This document shows positions 26,180 through 40,846 of a stretch of DNA of 64,000 bases, one piece after another. The notes under the pieces are model-generated. The model saw only the letters and a list, made by a program, of their open reading frames with translations, did no database searches and had not been told where the DNA came from. The translations under genes were made by a program, and so were the position numbers. Each line of letters starts with the position of its first letter. Position 1 is the stretch's first letter. The stretch is from Prolixibacteraceae bacterium (GTDB lineage: Bacteria; Bacteroidota; Bacteroidia; Bacteroidales; Prolixibacteraceae), in assembly GCA_030602265.1 (NCBI GenBank), contig JAUWAB010000007.1, positions 44,795-108,794 of the forward strand, given 5' to 3'.

Positions 26180-26989
26180 TTAATTTATGATAAGACCAAA
26201 CTTAACAGACAGGCGGTTGAAATCCACATCCAGGTTATACTCGTTATCTCCGCTGTAACGAAGCCTGTGAAAACGGTAACCGACCGCAAACGTGAAGCCG
26301 TAACCAGTCCGGGACTGACTGATAAATCCGACCGCCGGATTCAGTAAAAAACCGCCCTTAGCCTTTAACGCGCTCTGGTTTATGGGCATAGGCCCCGGCC
26401 AAATGACGCTTGAATAAACGCTCTCCGGCACGATATTGTAGTAAAGCGTTCTTGAGTTTTCGGCAGGTACCTGATAACCCGCCTGCAGAACAGCATATGG
26501 TGAAAACCGGGTATCGCGCAACCGGTACAACAGGTTTGCAGACAAAGGCAGATAGGTCTCTTTCAGGAATTCCACCCCAACACCGGCACCCGCCGAAAGG
26601 TTATTCCAGAAGGTGTAATTCAGGGATGTCCCTACGCTGAGCGGAGCCGACTGGCTGTTATCCGGATTCCCTGCAAGTACGCCGATCTCCGATAAACTGA
26701 ACCAGCGTGAAGGCTGGATAAAGCCTTCATTGAACTCAGGATCCGGGGCATACTGCCTTGCCGGTCGCTGGCTTGTAACCAGCTCAACTTCAGAGGTATT
26801 GAATATCCAGGTATTCCGGCCGGATACTACCCTAAGTTTTTCAAGGTCATTGGAATAGAGGTACCTTCCCTTGATAACCACGCCATCTTTGAGATGAATG
26901 TACCCCCTTTCATAAACGCCATAGGGTGCTTGCCCATGGCTTACCATTGCGAACAGTAACGCAAAAACAAAAGTCAGTAGTTTATACAT
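26180..26989 (-). CDS. Exported beta-rich, probably outer-membrane, protein
   Basis: The 269-residue protein has a signal peptide (MYKLLTFVFALLFAMVSHGQA). An N-terminal segment near 25-70 (GYIHLKDGVVIKGRYLYSNDLEKLRVVSGRNTWIFNTSEVE) looks like a small beta domain found before barrels in this phylum. From about residue 95 it consists of alternating strands (GTSLNYTFWNNLSAGAGVGVEFL, FAVGYRFHRLRYS) ending LSVKFGLIIN, consistent with an eight-strand barrel. It starts 22 bases from an ECF-type promoter and precedes the LVIVD lipoprotein, so the two form an operon next to the sigma/anti-sigma operon. No name can be given. Confidence 0.65.
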   Translation of the reverse strand: MYKLLTFVFALLFAMVSHGQAPYGVYERGYIHLKDGVVIKGRYLYSNDLEKLRVVSGRNTWIFNTSEVELVTSQRPARQYAPDPEFNEGFIQPSRWFSLSEIGVLAGNPDNSQSAPLSVGTSLNYTFWNNLSAGAGVGVEFLKETYLPLSANLLYRLRDTRFSPYAVLQAGYQVPAENSRTLYYNIVPESVYSSVIWPGPMPINQSALKAKGGFLLNPAVGFISQSRTGYGFTFAVGYRFHRLRYSGDNEYNLDVDFNRLSVKFGLIIN

Positions 26990-27010: not shown

Positions 27011-27036
27011 GATGGGATAACTTTGCGGAAGGTTGC
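27011..27036 (-). promoter_or_regulatory. ECF-type promoter for the OMP/LVIVD operon
   Basis: On the minus strand GCAACC is followed by 16 bases and then CATCTAA. The -35-like GCAACCTT and the CATCTAA box are the same as in the promoter of the sigma gene at 29100-29125, at the same spacing. Confidence 0.7.
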
Positions 27037-27050
27037 GTCCAGGATATTAA

Positions 27051-28445
27051 TCAGAATTCATAACTGATCCCTGTGAATACGCCAACCCTCCATGGTTTAA
27101 AATTCACATCCCCGCTGTGGTTGATCGAATTAAGATAGTAGCTCAGTCGAGGCTCTACAGACAGGGAGAGATTCCTGCCCATGGCGTATATCAGTCCGAC
27201 CCCTGCATTTCCGGAGAAATTTACGGTAGAAATATCCCTGGTGCTGCCAACCAGTTGCCTGTCACCGTTATTATCCATAAAAACATGGTTTCCGACGACG
27301 AAGCTGGTACTTAAACCCCCTACGAGTTCAACATCCAGCTTTGAATCGACCACCTGATACCGGGCAAACAAAGGGACTTCGACAAAATCAAAAACCTGGG
27401 AAAACTCGCCGGGTGTCAGCATTGCCGTGGACAATCCGAAGGAAGTCTCCGGCATGGAAACCAGTTCCACATTGGCAGGAGTATGGCTGAAGGCAATCAC
27501 CCCGGCGGTGCTGTTCATGGCCATCTGCCCGCGGTTCACTGATACACCGGTATTGAAGTACTTTTCTGCAGCTCCCGGTGCACTTACATAATCATATTGG
27601 GCACGGTTGCCTGAAAACATGGGGGAGTTTGAGGAGTTACCCCCGTTTCGGGAGTAGTACATCCCACTTTCAACCCTCCATCGCGAAGCTGTTTTGTATT
27701 GAAGAGAAAAACCACCGCCCATATTTGCCCGAGCATCGGCATCGGAGTAGGTCATATTTCTTGCGTATACCTGACTATGGCTTGCCGAATGGGAGGAGTA
27801 GCCCGGAGAAAGATGAACCCCGACTTTCCAGGCCGCATTAATGTCGGATTCACCAGATGCGGTTATCGCCATGTTGCCGGCAATAATCAGCTTATCGGCT
27901 TCACTTAGTTTATCCGCGGAAATGGTTTCAGATTTCACACCGGGCATTGATTCCTCCCTGAATGAATCATAGGCAATATAGGCTTTGATGGCTGACATTA
28001 GGGACATGCTCTCTTTTTCGGGCCGGGTAACATTGGGAAATCCTGCCGGCCGGGAGCCAGAAGCGTCGGGATATCCGGATGGGACCTCAGATGAAATCGA
28101 AGACCCCGGAAGCTTACCGGTAATTTCTGTGGCTGCAGGAGAGGCTTCAGTATCTGTAATGGAAGAAGTAGCGGAAGGCAATACAGAAGGCTCAGCCGGT
28201 TGTACCCTTTCAGCCAGTCCTCTATGACCGGGGCCCGACCAGTCAGGCACAAGCACGCCCGCCATAACGGCAAGCAGCAGGACTGCAGCCGCAGCCAGCC
28301 TGCGGAGGTATATAATCCTTTTATGCCCGCGTACGGCGTTCATCTCTGACCGGATGCCCTGCCAAATACGCTCAGGCGGTTCGGCAGAAAAATTCTCCAG
28401 CCTTCCGCGAAGCAATTCATCCCATCTCTCTTCTCCGTTTCTCAT
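27051..28445 (-). CDS. Anti-sigma factor fused to outer-membrane barrel-like domain (Dma type)
   Basis: The 464-residue protein has a short cytosolic part (RWDELLRGRLENFSAEPPERIWQGIRSEM, residues 7-35) like the anti-sigma helices of FecR/Dma proteins, one transmembrane helix near 49-67 (LAAAAVLLLAVMAGVLVP), a Ser/Pro/Glu-rich periplasmic linker to about 190, and a C-terminal beta-rich domain (VGVHLSPGYSSHSAS, FSLQYKTASRWRVESGMYYSRN, LSLSVEPRLSYYLNSI) ending in the aromatic residue F, as expected of a barrel. It overlaps the sigma gene by four bases (ATGA). Such proteins are thought to span both membranes and to release the sigma factor on an envelope signal. The barrel assignment rests on pattern only. 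Confidence 0.75.
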   Translation of the reverse strand: MRNGEERWDELLRGRLENFSAEPPERIWQGIRSEMNAVRGHKRIIYLRRLAAAAVLLLAVMAGVLVPDWSGPGHRGLAERVQPAEPSVLPSATSSITDTEASPAATEITGKLPGSSISSEVPSGYPDASGSRPAGFPNVTRPEKESMSLMSAIKAYIAYDSFREESMPGVKSETISADKLSEADKLIIAGNMAITASGESDINAAWKVGVHLSPGYSSHSASHSQVYARNMTYSDADARANMGGGFSLQYKTASRWRVESGMYYSRNGGNSSNSPMFSGNRAQYDYVSAPGAAEKYFNTGVSVNRGQMAMNSTAGVIAFSHTPANVELVSMPETSFGLSTAMLTPGEFSQVFDFVEVPLFARYQVVDSKLDVELVGGLSTSFVVGNHVFMDNNGDRQLVGSTRDISTVNFSGNAGVGLIYAMGRNLSLSVEPRLSYYLNSINHSGDVNFKPWRVGVFTGISYEF

Positions 28446-29002
28446 ATAGAGTACTTCCTGTTTTTTTTCATTTCACCATAATGGATTTCCACCTTATGCC
28501 TTAATAATTCTCTGGCCCGCGAAAGGTTAGACTTCGAGGTTCCTTCAGAGATTCCGAGTTCCTTACCGATCTCCTGATGACTGTATCCCTCCATGACGTA
28601 TAAGTTGAATACCAGGCGATACTGGGGAGGCAATTCCCGGATCAGGCCCACCAGGTCTTCAAGCGGGAGCCCGGCCATCGCTTCATCCGGATTTGTCGCC
28701 ATGTCATGCTTCCCGATTTCATCCACATACAACACTGGCTGGTTTTTCCGGTACCGGTCAAGGGCCGTATTGACCATGATCCGCCTTACCCATCCCTCAA
28801 AAGAACCCTCGTGCCTGAAATCCTTCAGCTTTGTAAAGACCGTGATGAAACCATCCTGCAGATTATCTTCAGCCTCAGCGGTATCTCTGGCGTACCGCAG
28901 ACAAACCCCAAACATTTTTGGCGCCAGCATGCGGTATAACTTTTCGTGGGCCCGGTGATCCCCCGAAACGCAGGCATCAATTATTTTCCTGATGTCTTCC
29001 AA
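28442..29002 (-). CDS. ECF-type RNA polymerase sigma factor
   Basis: The 186-residue protein has sigma region 2 (AEDNLQDGFITVFTKLKDFRHEGSFEGWVRRIMVNTALDRYR, about 45-86) and region 4 with a helix-turn-helix (LPPQYRLVFNLYVMEGYSHQEIGKELGISEGTSKSNLSRARELLR, about 123-167). No region 3 is present, so it is a group IV (ECF) factor. It overlaps the anti-sigma gene behind it, the usual arrangement for a cognate pair. Its own promoter at 29100-29125 has the same elements as two neighbouring promoters, so it probably autoregulates. Confidence 0.95.
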   Translation of the reverse strand: MEDIRKIIDACVSGDHRAHEKLYRMLAPKMFGVCLRYARDTAEAEDNLQDGFITVFTKLKDFRHEGSFEGWVRRIMVNTALDRYRKNQPVLYVDEIGKHDMATNPDEAMAGLPLEDLVGLIRELPPQYRLVFNLYVMEGYSHQEIGKELGISEGTSKSNLSRARELLRHKVEIHYGEMKKNRKYSI

Positions 29003-29099: not shown

Positions 29100-29125
29100 G
29101 ATGAATTCCACCTGAAAAAGGTTGC
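29100..29125 (-). promoter_or_regulatory. ECF-type promoter of the sigma/anti-sigma operon
   Basis: Minus strand: GCAACCTT begins the -35 element and CATCTAA lies 16 bases after CAACC. It would give a leader of about 90 bases before the sigma ATG. Confidence 0.7.
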
Positions 29126-29159
29126 GTGACCAAAAAATATTCAGCACAGGCGCAACCTT
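29118..29159. repeat. 9-bp inverted repeat made by two divergent -35 elements
   Basis: AAGGTTGCG at 29118-29126 and CGCAACCTT at 29151-29159 are perfect reverse complements, 24 bases apart. They form the -35 elements of the minus-strand sigma promoter and the plus-strand serpin promoter. Confidence 0.8.
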
Positions 29160-29177
29160 ACAGTTTCTGTTTACGTC
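29152..29177 (+). promoter_or_regulatory. ECF-type promoter of the serpin genes
   Basis: GCAACCTT is followed by CGTC 16 bases after CAACC. The -10 box differs from CATC in the two minus-strand copies by one base. The leader to the first serpin ATG would be about 135 bases. The rest of 29003-29320 shows no gene. Confidence 0.65.
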
Positions 29178-29320
29178 AATTCTAATATCCTGAACTTCTT
29201 TGTTTTGGACTGAAACCTTCCGGGAAGCCAAGGGAAGACGGGTCAAGTCACGGCAAACCGGTGACGGATGTGGGTTCCGCGGAAAACGGCCAGGAACGCA
29301 ATAACAAGGATGTTTACAAA

Positions 29321-30574
29321 ATGAAAAAGGTTATGAGAAAAAGCGCTAAATTCATTCTGATCTTAACGGCACTCCTGACAGTGACCATACCAGGCTGCAA
29401 CCTGAGCGACCCTGCTGATACACCCGATTTTGAAGTAAGTGAAAAATCTGCCCGCCTGATTGATGCCAATAACCAGTTTGGATTTGAACTTTTTCAGCAG
29501 GTATATGCCTGGGAAGAAGAAGCCGAAAACATTATGGTTTCTCCGTTAAGCCTGGCTTTGGCACTGGCCATGACTTACAACGGGGCTGAAGGGACAACGA
29601 AGGTTGCGATGGAAAAAACGCTGAGACTAAACGGGTTAAGCACATCCGAAATAAACGAATCATACCAGTCGCTGGTAAAAAACCTCCAATCGGTTGATCC
29701 CAAGGTACTTCTTGAAATCGCCAATGCCATATTCTACCGGAAAGACTTCGAGGTGGAAAACAATTTTGTACAGGTAAACCAGACTCATTACAACGCTGAA
29801 ATTTCCGCTCTGGATTTTGACAGCCCTCTGGCACTTCAGACCATTAACGGCTGGGTAAACGACAAAACCCGGGGCAAGATCCCGTTCATCCTGGACCAGA
29901 TCACCCCTTCGCATGTGATGTTCCTTCTCAACGCCATTTATTTCAAAGGCACCTGGACAAAAGAATTCAATCCTAAAAACACTGTTAAACAAGACTTTAC
30001 AACAGGACAGGGAACTTCTGCAGAAACAAACCTGATGCACCGTGTCGACACCCTGGATTACCTGCGGAATGACCTTTTCAGTGCCATACGTCTTTCCTAT
30101 GGAAAAGAAAATTACAACATGTACGTACTTCTTCCGGAACCCGACAAAAAAGTGGAGGATATCATTGCCAGGCTCAATAAGGAAAACTGGACAACCTGGA
30201 TGAAACAATTTAAAAAGACCAATACGGTCGACATCATGCTACCACGGTTTAAATTTCCTTATGAAATCAAACTGAATGATGTGCTTACCGACATGGGGAT
30301 GGGTATCGCCTTTGGCTCAGCCGCAGATTTCACGGGAATCAACCGGGGAGGCGAGCTCAATATTGATTACGTAAAACAGAAGACTTTTGTCGAGGTTAAT
30401 GAAGAGGGCACTGAAGCCGCTGCGGTGACAGTGGTTGCCATTGAGCGGACAAGCATTGGGCCTTCGAAGACCTATTTTCACGTAACCCGGCCCTTCCTGT
30501 TTGCCATTACCGAGAAAACTACCGGGGCCGTGATGTTTATCGGAACCGTAAAAAACCCGGCAGCTGGTTCCTGA
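29321..30574 (+). CDS. Serpin-family protease inhibitor, lipoprotein
   Basis: The ORF track starts at 29261, but ATG 29321 gives MKKVMRKSAKF..., a signal peptide ending in a lipobox-like IPGC (Cys26), so I use it; the product is 417 residues. Serpin landmarks are all present: NIMVSPLSLALALAMTYNGAEGTT, VMFLLNAIYFKGTW, FKFPYEIKL, and the reactive-centre hinge VNEEGTEAAAVTVVAIE followed by VTRPFLFAI and GAVMFIGTVKNP. The small residues of the hinge suggest an inhibitory serpin. Counting from the hinge places P1 near Arg-Thr (ERTS), which favours trypsin-like proteases. It sits downstream of the ECF-type promoter at 29152 and is followed 86 bases later by a paralogue. Confidence 0.94.
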   Translation: MKKVMRKSAKFILILTALLTVTIPGCNLSDPADTPDFEVSEKSARLIDANNQFGFELFQQVYAWEEEAENIMVSPLSLALALAMTYNGAEGTTKVAMEKTLRLNGLSTSEINESYQSLVKNLQSVDPKVLLEIANAIFYRKDFEVENNFVQVNQTHYNAEISALDFDSPLALQTINGWVNDKTRGKIPFILDQITPSHVMFLLNAIYFKGTWTKEFNPKNTVKQDFTTGQGTSAETNLMHRVDTLDYLRNDLFSAIRLSYGKENYNMYVLLPEPDKKVEDIIARLNKENWTTWMKQFKKTNTVDIMLPRFKFPYEIKLNDVLTDMGMGIAFGSAADFTGINRGGELNIDYVKQKTFVEVNEEGTEAAAVTVVAIERTSIGPSKTYFHVTRPFLFAITEKTTGAVMFIGTVKNPAAGS

Positions 30575-30660
30575 CCAGAAAGAAAGGAAATCTGCCGTTA
30601 ATCTTTCAGGAATGATTTTTGTATAATAACCTTCTGTATAACCATCAAAAAACTACAGCC

Positions 30661-31902
30661 ATGAAGACGATATTCACCCTGATAATCCTCCTTTCCTTTG
30701 GGATAACTTCGTGCAATAAGCAGGAAGCAAATCCTGAAGGCCTTTTTAACCTGCCCGAAAAGTCGGCCCAGCTGATCGAGGCCGACAACCAGTTTGGCCT
30801 GGAGCTTTTCCGGAAAGTAGCTGCAGAAGCCAATCCCAATGACAATACACTGATCTCGCCGCTAAGTGTTGCCCTGGCGCTGGGTATGACCTACAACGGG
30901 GCATCGGGCGATACCCGGACCGAAATGGAGAAGACGCTTAAGGTACACGGCCTTACCATGGAACAGATCAACCAGGCCCATAAGGCGTTGCTGGAAGCAT
31001 TGAAGGCAGCCGATCCAGACGTAATGCTGGAAATCGCCAATGCCATATATTACCGGCAAGGCGCAACTGTATTGGAAAGCTTTAAAAACCTGAACCGGGA
31101 GTATTATGATGCCGAAATCAATGCCCTTAGCTTCAACAACCCTGAAGAGGCGCTTCAAATCATTAACAGCTGGGTTTCAAACAAAACCAGGGAAAAAATA
31201 CCGACGATCCTGGATCAGATTGAACCAGACCTGATCATGGTCCTGCTCAATGCCATTTATTTCAACGGCATCTGGAAATATAAATTCGATGAGGATAAAA
31301 CCCACGAACTGCCCTTCCTCCAAGGCAACGGACAATGGAAGGACGTGGAAACCATGAACCAGGAAACATCGCTTGAATATACCAAAAACAACCTGTTCTC
31401 TGCGATCCATCTGCCATATGGCAAGGAACAGTTCAGAATGACGGTAATCCTGCCTGAATCCAATAAGTCAACAGGAGATGTAATGGCAGCCATGAATCTC
31501 GACAACTGGAAAAACTGGATGAAATCCTTCAAAAAAGAAGACAAGGTGGTGGTTACCATGCCGAGGTTCAAATTTTCCTGGCAGACAGAACTGAAGGACA
31601 TCCTCTCCGCCATGGGTATGACCAAGGCATTCACCCCTTATGTGGCCGATTTCTCAGGCATCAATGGAGCGAAAGACCTCTTTATTGGTTACGTAAAGCA
31701 TAAAACCTTTATTGACGTAAACGAAAACGGTACTGAAGCGGCAGCTGTGACTGCTGTCGGGATGTTCACCACCAGTATGCCGGTAGATCCGCCCAATAAG
31801 GTTTATTTTAAAGTGGACAGGCCATTTATATTTGCCATTACGGAAAAGTCGACCGGCGTAATCCTGTTTATCGGCGAAATACGGGCTCCGGAATACAACT
31901 AA
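30661..31902 (+). CDS. Second serpin-family protease inhibitor, lipoprotein
   Basis: The ORF-track start at 30619 is a TTG; ATG 30661 gives MKTIFTLIILLSFGITSC with a lipobox at Cys18, so the product is 413 residues. It is a tandem paralogue of the preceding serpin, sharing KSAQLIEADNQFGLELF, LISPLSVALALGMTYNGASG, VLLNAIYFNGIW and the hinge VNENGTEAAAVTAVGM. The reactive loop is different: after the hinge comes GMFTTSMPVDPPN, with hydrophobic and Thr/Ser residues instead of Arg, so the target protease is probably chymotrypsin- or subtilisin-like. No promoter is evident in the 86-base gap, so it is probably co-transcribed with the first gene. Confidence 0.94.
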   Translation: MKTIFTLIILLSFGITSCNKQEANPEGLFNLPEKSAQLIEADNQFGLELFRKVAAEANPNDNTLISPLSVALALGMTYNGASGDTRTEMEKTLKVHGLTMEQINQAHKALLEALKAADPDVMLEIANAIYYRQGATVLESFKNLNREYYDAEINALSFNNPEEALQIINSWVSNKTREKIPTILDQIEPDLIMVLLNAIYFNGIWKYKFDEDKTHELPFLQGNGQWKDVETMNQETSLEYTKNNLFSAIHLPYGKEQFRMTVILPESNKSTGDVMAAMNLDNWKNWMKSFKKEDKVVVTMPRFKFSWQTELKDILSAMGMTKAFTPYVADFSGINGAKDLFIGYVKHKTFIDVNENGTEAAAVTAVGMFTTSMPVDPPNKVYFKVDRPFIFAITEKSTGVILFIGEIRAPEYN

Positions 31903-35349: not shown

Positions 35350-36588
35350 ATGTATCTCCCTGATTTATATTACCATAACCCCACCTGCGATTTTGCCATA
35401 GCCAATGGAACTGTATCCTGGCAACCCAACCGGTTGCTTCAGCTTATGGAAAGAGACACCGGCAACCTTCCCCAATACCTGTGCCATCCAAGGGATATTG
35501 TTCTGGTAAGACAGCTTCCGTCCGAAAGGCTTAGGCAAGTTATTTCGGACTCTGGGCTCAATCTTCCGGAATTCAGGTTAATACACGAGGCCGCTGAGGA
35601 TCCGGATTTTTTAAGTCAAGCCAGGGGCTCTATCCGCCCATGGGGATGGAGCCCTTCGGCCCATGCAGCATTAGAGCCATTTAAAATCTCCTGTTCTGCT
35701 GATTTCCTGAACTCGCCGGTGGCATACTGGCAACATGGTTTCCGGCCTCTTTACAGCAGGTTGACAGCCAGGGACATTCTTGTAAAAATCCTTCAGGAAG
35801 ATGAATTACCGGAACTTGCCGACCCAGGTACTATTCCTGAAATTTGCTGTACCCTCCGCGAAATAGAAATCCTGGTTGAGAATCGGGGACCGATGATGGT
35901 AAAAATGCCATGGAGCAGTTCCGGCAGAGGGTTGCAACCCATAACGACCTACCCCATAAGCAGATCTGTCAGTCAACGCCTTTCGGGAATGTTGCGTGAC
36001 CAGGGATTTGTTCTTGCCGAAAGGCTGCTGACGAAAATCTGCGACCTCGGATTTCTTTATGAGATAACATCCGGGGAAATCAGGTTCGTTGGGCATTCAA
36101 GGTTTTTTACCAATGAAAAGGGACAGTACCGGGGAAATTACCTGAACGGATACCCAAACGGGAAAAGTCGGGAGGAACAGGAATTTATAAGGCATGCCGG
36201 GAAGTCTCTGCCCCCGATACAGACAAGGGCACTGGAAAAATCTGGTATCACCAGTTTATACGAAGGCCCCTGCGGCATAGACACTCTTATATATCGTGAT
36301 TCTTCCGGAAAGCTAAGGATACAGCCCTGTCTTGAGATCAACCTGAGGTACACCATGGGACATGTGGCTGCAAGACTTGAAAAGCACCTGGCACCGGGAT
36401 CAAAAGGGATATTCAGCATGTATTACCAAAAGGAGAAAACTTTTGCTGATTATGTATCAACAAATTACCAGAAGAAACCGGATCTGGACTCCGGAGGCCG
36501 CATTGTATCGGGATTTCTGCCACTTACGGAGTTTGGACTGAACAACGTTTTCGGGGCATATCTGAGTATCGCCCAATCTGCAACCTGA
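35350..36588 (+). CDS. ATP-grasp-like protein of unknown function
   Basis: The 412-residue protein is not one I can name. Segments fit an ATP-grasp fold: MMVKMPWSSSGRGLQPI (glycine-rich phosphate loop) near 190, GFVLAERLLTKICDLGFLYEITSGEI near 218-243, and the late GPCGIDTLIYRDSSGKLRIQPCLEINLRYTMG near 305-336 with the acidic and asparagine metal ligands EIN. N-terminal residues 1-110 are unlike any family I recognise and start with YYHNPTCDFAIANG. It follows cvpA by six bases, so it is probably in the same transcript. The enzyme would join a carboxylate to an amine, but the substrate is unknown. Confidence 0.6.
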   Translation: MYLPDLYYHNPTCDFAIANGTVSWQPNRLLQLMERDTGNLPQYLCHPRDIVLVRQLPSERLRQVISDSGLNLPEFRLIHEAAEDPDFLSQARGSIRPWGWSPSAHAALEPFKISCSADFLNSPVAYWQHGFRPLYSRLTARDILVKILQEDELPELADPGTIPEICCTLREIEILVENRGPMMVKMPWSSSGRGLQPITTYPISRSVSQRLSGMLRDQGFVLAERLLTKICDLGFLYEITSGEIRFVGHSRFFTNEKGQYRGNYLNGYPNGKSREEQEFIRHAGKSLPPIQTRALEKSGITSLYEGPCGIDTLIYRDSSGKLRIQPCLEINLRYTMGHVAARLEKHLAPGSKGIFSMYYQKEKTFADYVSTNYQKKPDLDSGGRIVSGFLPLTEFGLNNVFGAYLSIAQSAT

Positions 36589-39940: not shown

Positions 39941-40846
39941 TTATCGCCGTTCACCCGTTCGCATCAGCTCAGTAATTCTCTTTTTTGTTACCCATGAAGT
40001 AGCTCCATGTGTGGTTGCGGTTACTGCACCGGCAGCATTACCAAACCTTAAAGCCTCCTCAACATTTTTATTCTCCAGGAAAACATGCAGGAATCCTGCT
40101 GAAAAGGCTGAACCGGAACCGACTGTATCGACCATTTCGATCCGGTAGCCCGGATCTTCAAAATAATCTCCGCTCCTGGTGATCGCGCAGGCGCCCGATT
40201 TGCTTTTTGTCACCAGCACTATGCCGATATCGTATTCATTGATTACCTCCTGTGCCAGTGCTTTGGTTTCAAATTCAAACAATCCCAGATCACTTTTCAG
40301 CGTATAAAGTTCATTTTCCTTAACCCGGAGGATATCAGCTCCCCGGAGGCTGCTCTCCAGAATCTCACGGTTATAGCAATTTTTACGCAGCTTCAGGTCG
40401 AGATATTTAATCGGCTGAGGAGCCTCATTCAGTAATTCCCTCAAAGTGTTTTTGGAAATTCCGTAGCGTTGTACAAGGGTTCCATAAACGAGACAATCAG
40501 CATCCCTGACGATTTTAAGGGCTTCGGCGGTAAATTCGATATGGTCGAATGCCATATCCGGATCAATCACGTAATCGGCACGCCCTTCACTGCCTACTCT
40601 GACATGAGCGGTTCCTGTCGGGAAAACCGGATCGGTCTGGACATTCTCATCGGAAATTTCCAATTTCCTGAGCTGTGCAACCGCTTCGGCACCCAATTCA
40701 TCATTTCCTATCCGGGAAAGCAGAACCCCCTGGTCCCCGAACGAATTTACCCGGTAAACCAGATTTACTGGTGCACCGCCAAGCTGTTTGCCTTCCTGAA
40801 ACACATCCCAGACCAGTTCACCAAATGCAACTATTTTTTTGTTCAT
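39941..40846 (-). CDS. PfkB-family carbohydrate kinase with altered catalytic motif
   Basis: I place the start at ATG 40846 (MNKKIVAFGELVWDVF); a -7 box at 40869 gives a 15- to 20-base leader, and the ORF-track start at 40867 would lie at the transcription start. The 301-residue protein is fructokinase-like (LGGAPVNLVYRVNSFG, RIGNDELGAEAVAQLRKL). The PfkB signature normally reads DTxGxGD, where the last Asp is the catalytic base; here it is DTVGSGSAFSAGF, with Ser in that position. The codons are clearly read. The rest (GNAAGAVTATTHGATSW) is intact. It could be inactive, a binding protein, or an unusual kinase. Confidence 0.8.
   Translation of the reverse strand: MNKKIVAFGELVWDVFQEGKQLGGAPVNLVYRVNSFGDQGVLLSRIGNDELGAEAVAQLRKLEISDENVQTDPVFPTGTAHVRVGSEGRADYVIDPDMAFDHIEFTAEALKIVRDADCLVYGTLVQRYGISKNTLRELLNEAPQPIKYLDLKLRKNCYNREILESSLRGADILRVKENELYTLKSDLGLFEFETKALAQEVINEYDIGIVLVTKSKSGACAITRSGDYFEDPGYRIEMVDTVGSGSAFSAGFLHVFLENKNVEEALRFGNAAGAVTATTHGATSWVTKKRITELMRTGERR

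Follow-up and report, generated by a model that had tools for sequence, protein, structure and literature searches.

Which genes answer to an anti-sigma factor that carries a barrel-like carboxy terminus, and what disturbs it? The question is raised by a locus in the window (the whole 64,000-nucleotide stretch of Prolixibacteraceae DNA that was analysed), where an original prediction, made without database searches, described an anti-sigma factor spanning both membranes, likened it to the Dma proteins, and took neighbouring serpin and LVIVD genes for a different output. By predicted anatomy and gene neighbourhood, set against the published Dma description, the locus is a member of the Dma/Reo kind. 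We infer that it encodes a sensor of outer-membrane stress, with NigD among the genes it turns on; in this lineage and scattered others, lipoprotein serpins resembling miropin would be turned on as well. The putative serpin output is what is new here relative to the papers searched, and a promoter motif shared by the sigma and serpin genes suggests it.

An anti-sigma factor with a predicted outer-membrane barrel

The open reading frame, on the minus strand, is real: it has homologues at 54 loci, each with an adjacent sigma gene, and a chance reading frame was rejected on account of this conservation. The parts of the protein and its neighbours are listed in Table 1.

Table 1. Features of the locus and their positions in the window
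Feature	Position	Strand	Evidence
LVIVD-repeat lipoprotein, 427 aa	24889..26172	-	PF08309, E 5.9e-8
Secreted protein, 269 aa (OMP269), probable outer-membrane barrel; first gene past the third promoter	26180..26989	-	
Predicted promoter of the OMP-LVIVD pair, GCAACC-N16-CATC	27011..27036	-	motif score 24.7
Dma/Reo-type anti-sigma factor, 464 aa	27051..28445	-	PF13568, AF2, Foldseek, homologue anatomy, conserved sigma neighbour
Predicted outer-membrane beta-barrel, residues 205-464, C-terminal Phe	27054..27833	-	PF13568, AF2, Foldseek
Long insertion between barrel strands 3 and 4, residues 274-346, conserved MNSTAG motif	27408..27626	-	AF2 strands, alignment
Periplasmic tether, residues 69-204, Ser/Pro/Ala-rich, mostly disordered	27834..28241	-	pLDDT <50 for 65-172
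Inner-membrane helix, residues 50-68	28242..28298	-	hydropathy peak 50-68 (Kyte-Doolittle 2.26 over 19 residues), AF2 helix 41-65
Cytosolic N-terminal part, residues 1-49, presumed sigma-binding	28299..28445	-	AF2 helices 5-16 and 25-38, conservation
Cognate ECF sigma factor (Das/EcfO-like), 186 aa, TTG start	28442..29002	-	PF04542 and PF08281, TIGR02937
Predicted promoter of the sigma-Dma operon, GCAACC-N16-CATC	29100..29125	-	motif score 29.3
Predicted promoter of serpin 1, GCAACC-N16-CGTC	29152..29177	+	motif score 17.6
Serpin 1, lipoprotein signal, hinge EEGTEAAAVT	29321..30574	+	PF00079, E 2e-112
Serpin 2, lipoprotein signal, hinge NENGTEAAAVT; ORF opens at 30619	30661..31902	+	PF00079, E 1.2e-113

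The Dma family is defined by an anti-sigma N-terminus, a transmembrane helix, a disordered tether, a C-terminal barrel and an adjacent ECF sigma gene (PMC13088901). Each anatomical feature in that description is present in the protein or consistent with it, and the AF2 model has the same order along the chain, i.e. helix, helix, transmembrane helix, disorder and barrel; the match to the published Dma/Reo architecture places the protein in a known kind. The two helices that precede the membrane are conserved, with D9, R13, a proline pair (P23-P24) and W28 standing out in the homologue alignment. A single transmembrane helix had been claimed near residue 58, where hydropathy and AF2 both place one, and it is clear in 52 of the 54 homologues. 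The linker, thought to be about 120 residues long, measures 136 from the end of the helix to the first strand and is mostly disordered (median 147 and minimum 129 in the 54 homologues). A fully extended chain of about 136 residues is enough to bridge a periplasm of 20-30 nm.

The expectation of a beta-rich C-terminus ending in an aromatic residue is borne out by residues 205-464: the last residue is F464, and phenylalanine is terminal in 48 of the 54 homologues. Pfam OMP_b-brl_2 (PF13568) matches residues 205-440 at 35.2 bits (cut-off 27). Modelled separately, residues 190-464 reach a pLDDT of 79.5 and a pTM of 0.73 and show eight long strands. Foldseek places barrels of the OmpA, Pla/OmpT, NspA and porin types first, at probability 1.00 and with a TM of up to 0.69 (to NspA). 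A structure-sequence search gave no sequence-related solved structure (best E 0.056). Could the domain be instead a periplasmic beta-rich sensor, in a protein that spans the inner membrane only? The whole-chain model has moderate confidence (pLDDT 64.8, pTM 0.51), which leaves some room for such a domain, but the top structural matches are outer-membrane barrels without exception, the Pfam match and the terminal phenylalanine agree with them, and the Reo/Dma relatives are described with an outer-membrane barrel (PMC9308784, PMC13088901); a periplasmic sensor is thus very unlikely. The protein appears to cross both membranes, with barrel closure and outer-membrane insertion as predictions of the model. 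Neither of the outcomes that the original prediction named as refuting, a soluble C-terminal fold or loss of the helix from close homologues, was seen. FecR-type and ordinary RsiW-like identities were rejected because those anti-sigma factors, to our knowledge, have no barrel.

Of interest is the long insertion between strands 3 and 4, in which M310, N311, A314 and G315 are invariant. Provided that the N-terminus of the barrel is periplasmic, the insertion should face the cell exterior, and it is a candidate sensing surface.

The sigma partner and its neighbours

The partner matches general ECF models of Pfam and NCBIfam, and the end of its gene overlaps the start of the anti-sigma gene by 4 bp. 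By its relatives the genome belongs in or near Prolixibacteraceae, Bacteroidota, and a homologue of the anti-sigma factor is present in 44 of 61 related genomes. Counted over 54 non-redundant homologous loci, the sigma gene adjoins the anti-sigma gene in every one, with the exact 4-bp overlap in 31.

The genes around the pair are less constant. The first gene divergent from sigma encodes a serpin in 35 of the 54 loci and a NigD-like lipoprotein in five, and a NigD-like gene is linked to the pair in 23; PF17415 matches at the same places support the NigD assignment. An adjacent serpin is absent from 19 loci, so that serpins would not be a universal output. On the downstream side, about a quarter of the loci carry the 269-aa gene (13/54) or the LVIVD gene (14/54), and the LVIVD gene follows the 269-aa gene in relatives as it does in the window. 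Neither Pfam nor NCBIfam has a match for the 269-aa protein; it represents an unnamed family conserved together with the LVIVD lipoprotein across genera. In relatives without this OMP-LVIVD pair, reading by eye finds genes for a TonB receptor, a DUF4249-like lipoprotein and a macroglobulin-like protein next in order (L031, L034, L051 and similar loci), and in some a convergent M14-like carboxypeptidase gene downstream of the anti-sigma gene.

A promoter motif shared by sigma, serpin and OMP-LVIVD genes

The sigma-serpin intergenic regions carry two copies of the motif GCAACC-N15-17-C[AG]TC, one per strand, each directed towards the gene on its side. Might so short a motif arise by chance? In the window there are six matches where 0.75 are expected, and a count of six was reached in 0 of 100 shuffles. 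Three of the six stand where promoters are expected, upstream of sigma, serpin 1 and the 269-aa gene (Table 1). The matches at 35462 and 53636, inside open reading frames, and that at 40677, with no open reading frame starting downstream, were treated as chance.

Across the loci the motif lies upstream of sigma in 46 of 54 (0.1 expected from dinucleotide shuffles), of the divergent serpin in 29 of 35, of OMP269 in 11 of 13, and of the divergent NigD-like lipoprotein in all five loci where this gene takes the place of the serpin. Eight of the 54 sigma genes and six of the 35 serpins are without an exact match, several of them having a near match. Tallied by site over the locus stretches, the motif precedes sigma 45 times, serpin 29, OMP269 11, NigD five and other genes five times, the last being three small lipoprotein and two TonB-receptor genes; three further sites are inside genes or precede none. 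Since the motif was first spotted in these same intergenic regions, the shuffles, the serpins unlinked to the locus and the genome-scale counts serve as the independent checks.

Two loci show a variation in arrangement. A lipoprotein of about 157 aa, preceded by the motif, is situated between serpin and sigma and is oriented like sigma (L055:2606-3076, L058:2250-2726). The sigma genes there have no motif copy of their own and so are probably co-transcribed with the lipoprotein gene.

The motif beyond the locus

In eight genomes the strict motif has 35 sites, compared with six for the reversed pattern, and most of the 35 precede serpin, LVIVD, OMP269, NigD or other lipoprotein and exported-protein genes. 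The NigD-like genes downstream of these genome-scale sites match PF17415 and PF12667 above cut-off. Four lipoprotein serpins that are unlinked to a Dma locus carry the motif (G050:C66, two in G043:C59, and G005:C1); in G005, which is of the same genus, the sole serpin has it, and the Dma locus is without an adjacent serpin. In an order-level sample the exact motif is found at 12 of 65 serpins, with near matches at several more, and serpins without a lipoprotein signal have no exact motif.

The genome from which the window comes adds further candidates, among them a propeller lipoprotein (Reg_prop, L098). A 144-aa lipoprotein with a GCAACC promoter (L118:1544-1978) matches the NigD1/NigD2 family model NF051862 weakly, below cut-off (E 0.001), and is possibly a shortened NigD. 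The NigD gene of the same genome (L195, G000:C83) has GCAACC with a variant -10 (AATC) at -69 and passes the relaxed model only. In the majority of the Prolixibacteraceae genomes searched, one or two NigD genes score strongly. GCAACC stands between -50 and -150 at most of these genes, and the -10 of several is a variant such as AATC or TATC in place of CATC. The variant -10 perhaps represents a weaker or differently timed promoter.

Are serpin and LVIVD genes a different output from that of known Dma proteins, as was first proposed? The proposal stands in so far as the one motif lies upstream of sigma, serpin and the OMP-LVIVD pair. The output is not wholly different, however, since NigD-like lipoproteins, a target of Dma1/EcfO, share the promoter in relatives and have a variant of it in the same genome as the window.

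The serpins could also be mere neighbours, read by another ECF sigma factor with a similar GCAACC promoter, with the pair controlling only itself and NigD-like lipoproteins. Bacteroidota genomes hold many ECF sigma factors, 50 in B. thetaiotaomicron (PMC12596196), and the motif occurs on serpins distant from any Dma gene. A divergent sigma relative is found at 10 serpin loci of the order-level sample, and at others the motif is present with no sigma gene within reach. A related ECF sigma could read the same motif. Against this reading, the identical motif that precedes sigma itself, as expected of autoregulation, is on the opposite strand upstream of the serpin, and by our count the 61 genomes hold about 64 serpin genes, of which about 39 lie no more than 10 kb from the gene of a Dma protein. 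Fortuitous neighbourhood is unlikely to be the explanation.

Proposed mechanism

The reading we prefer, and consider fairly probable, is that the Dma/Reo anti-sigma factor frees its ECF sigma on envelope disturbance and that GCAACC promoters then drive serpins, the OMP-LVIVD pair, NigD and other lipoproteins. At rest, the N-terminal segment would hold sigma at the inner membrane, with the tether crossing the periplasm and joining the inner-membrane helix to the outer-membrane barrel. Disturbance of the outer membrane, or failed assembly of the barrel, would free sigma directly or via proteolysis of the tether. Freed sigma would read GCAACC-N15-17-C[AG]TC promoters and so raise transcription of its own operon. 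The two lipoprotein serpins, at the surface or in the periplasm, would be expressed along with the barrel/LVIVD lipoprotein pair, the unlinked NigD-like lipoprotein and a small number of further lipoproteins. The role of the serpins would be to shield the damaged envelope against proteases. The computation itself shows the gene structure, the domain anatomy, the conservation of the pair, and the shared promoter with its specificity for these genes; binding, release, signal, the reading of the motif by this sigma and serpin benefit are modelled here on published relatives and on serpin biochemistry. Several points count against the scheme. In the window the serpin promoter scores 17.6, compared with 29.3 for the sigma promoter; the NigD site of this genome has a variant -10; some sigma genes and serpins are without the exact motif; and serpins are neither adjacent at every locus nor preceded by the exact motif in most of the order-level sample.

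What might the barrel respond to, if not envelope disturbance? A ligand such as a surface glycan has been speculated upon for Dma2 (PMC13088901), and the TonB receptor and partner lipoprotein genes downstream in some relatives would suit a receptor. Only five motif sites at the loci, however, fall outside the sigma, serpin, OMP269 and NigD genes, and just two of these belong to TonB-receptor genes, the other three to small lipoproteins. A ligand receptor has a small but appreciable chance of being the right description.

Comparison with known systems

The locus resembles Dma1/Das1 and Dma2/Das2 of B. thetaiotaomicron in the order of parts and in the directly adjacent ECF sigma gene. As with Dma1, whose target is nigD1, a NigD-like lipoprotein would be a target, as the promoter motif suggests. 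Loss of the anti-sigma factor in the Dma1/EcfO system reportedly increases vesicles. The neighbours differ from those of Dma1 and Dma2, as a serpin (or NigD) gene is divergent from sigma and the OMP-LVIVD pair lies downstream. The Dma2 operon consists instead of BT_1555-1557 (an enoyl-reductase-like protein, DUF4858 and DUF4943), and das2 is induced together with its operon when Dma2 is deleted (PMC13088901).

EcfO-Reo of Phocaeicola vulgatus and Bacteroides fragilis likewise has a barrel-bearing anti-sigma factor of the same kind; its inducers are toxins, gut and oxygen, and in P. vulgatus it is activated by envelope-acting antibacterial toxins (PMC9308784). Three nigD genes require EcfO-Reo, among them M0N98_03762, whose number adjoins that of the sigma gene 03761 (PMC13114119), an arrangement that resembles the NigD gene divergent from sigma in relatives of the present locus. 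PMC7366714 states that an EcfO motif was identified in B. fragilis, and a literature search for GCAACC gave nothing relevant. The GCAACC motif may itself already be known as the EcfO promoter. That promoter is presumably a 28-bp element, which would fit GCAACC-N16-CATCTA. As to the serpins, a search of the literature on serpin, sigma factor and Bacteroidetes for a serpin as a Dma/EcfO output gave unrelated papers only, and the word serpin does not occur in PMC9308784.

Bacterial serpins are biochemically well known, and their control is little described in the literature searched. The promoter described here, each base of which is open to mutation, would now connect lipoprotein serpins with one particular regulator of envelope stress. 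The Dma/EcfO-NigD link, hitherto described in gut Bacteroides and Phocaeicola, would hold in Prolixibacteraceae too, and in several further families of the order. With a regulon signature that can be computed, what Dma proteins sense can be put to the test in cultivated relatives.

The serpins and possible protease sensing

Both serpins are divergent from sigma and upstream of it. PF00079 scores above 376 bits for each, and the hinges, read from the sequence, are of the inhibitory type. The reading frame of serpin 1 opens at 29261, with ATG 29321 as its likely start. The closest solved structure to serpin 1 is that of miropin of Tannerella forsythia (5ncs, E 5e-83). The genome has two serpins in total, both at this locus.

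Does the anti-sigma factor then sense protease attack at the surface, an exposed loop or the tether being cut, sigma released and the serpins acting as negative feedback? That the linked outputs have inhibitory-type hinges, and that their nearest relative is the protease inhibitor miropin, is in keeping with this idea, as is an insertion (residues 274-346) that is both long and conserved. The known inducers of EcfO-Reo are nevertheless envelope-acting antibacterial toxins (PMC9308784), and many of the other outputs are non-inhibitors. Protease sensing is, on balance, rather unlikely. If true, it would constitute a bacterial antiprotease response wired from the surface to RNA polymerase through one protein.

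Two minor observations concern the serpin and protease content of relatives. At L127 / L160 (G034:C1:825888) the gene behind a GCAACC promoter encodes a lipoprotein that has a weak trypsin-like match below cut-off (PF13365, E 9e-5); the regulon may thus include a protease besides inhibitors. In G008:C62 and G029:C269, tandem arrays of four to five serpin genes are situated less than 10 kb from the anti-sigma gene.
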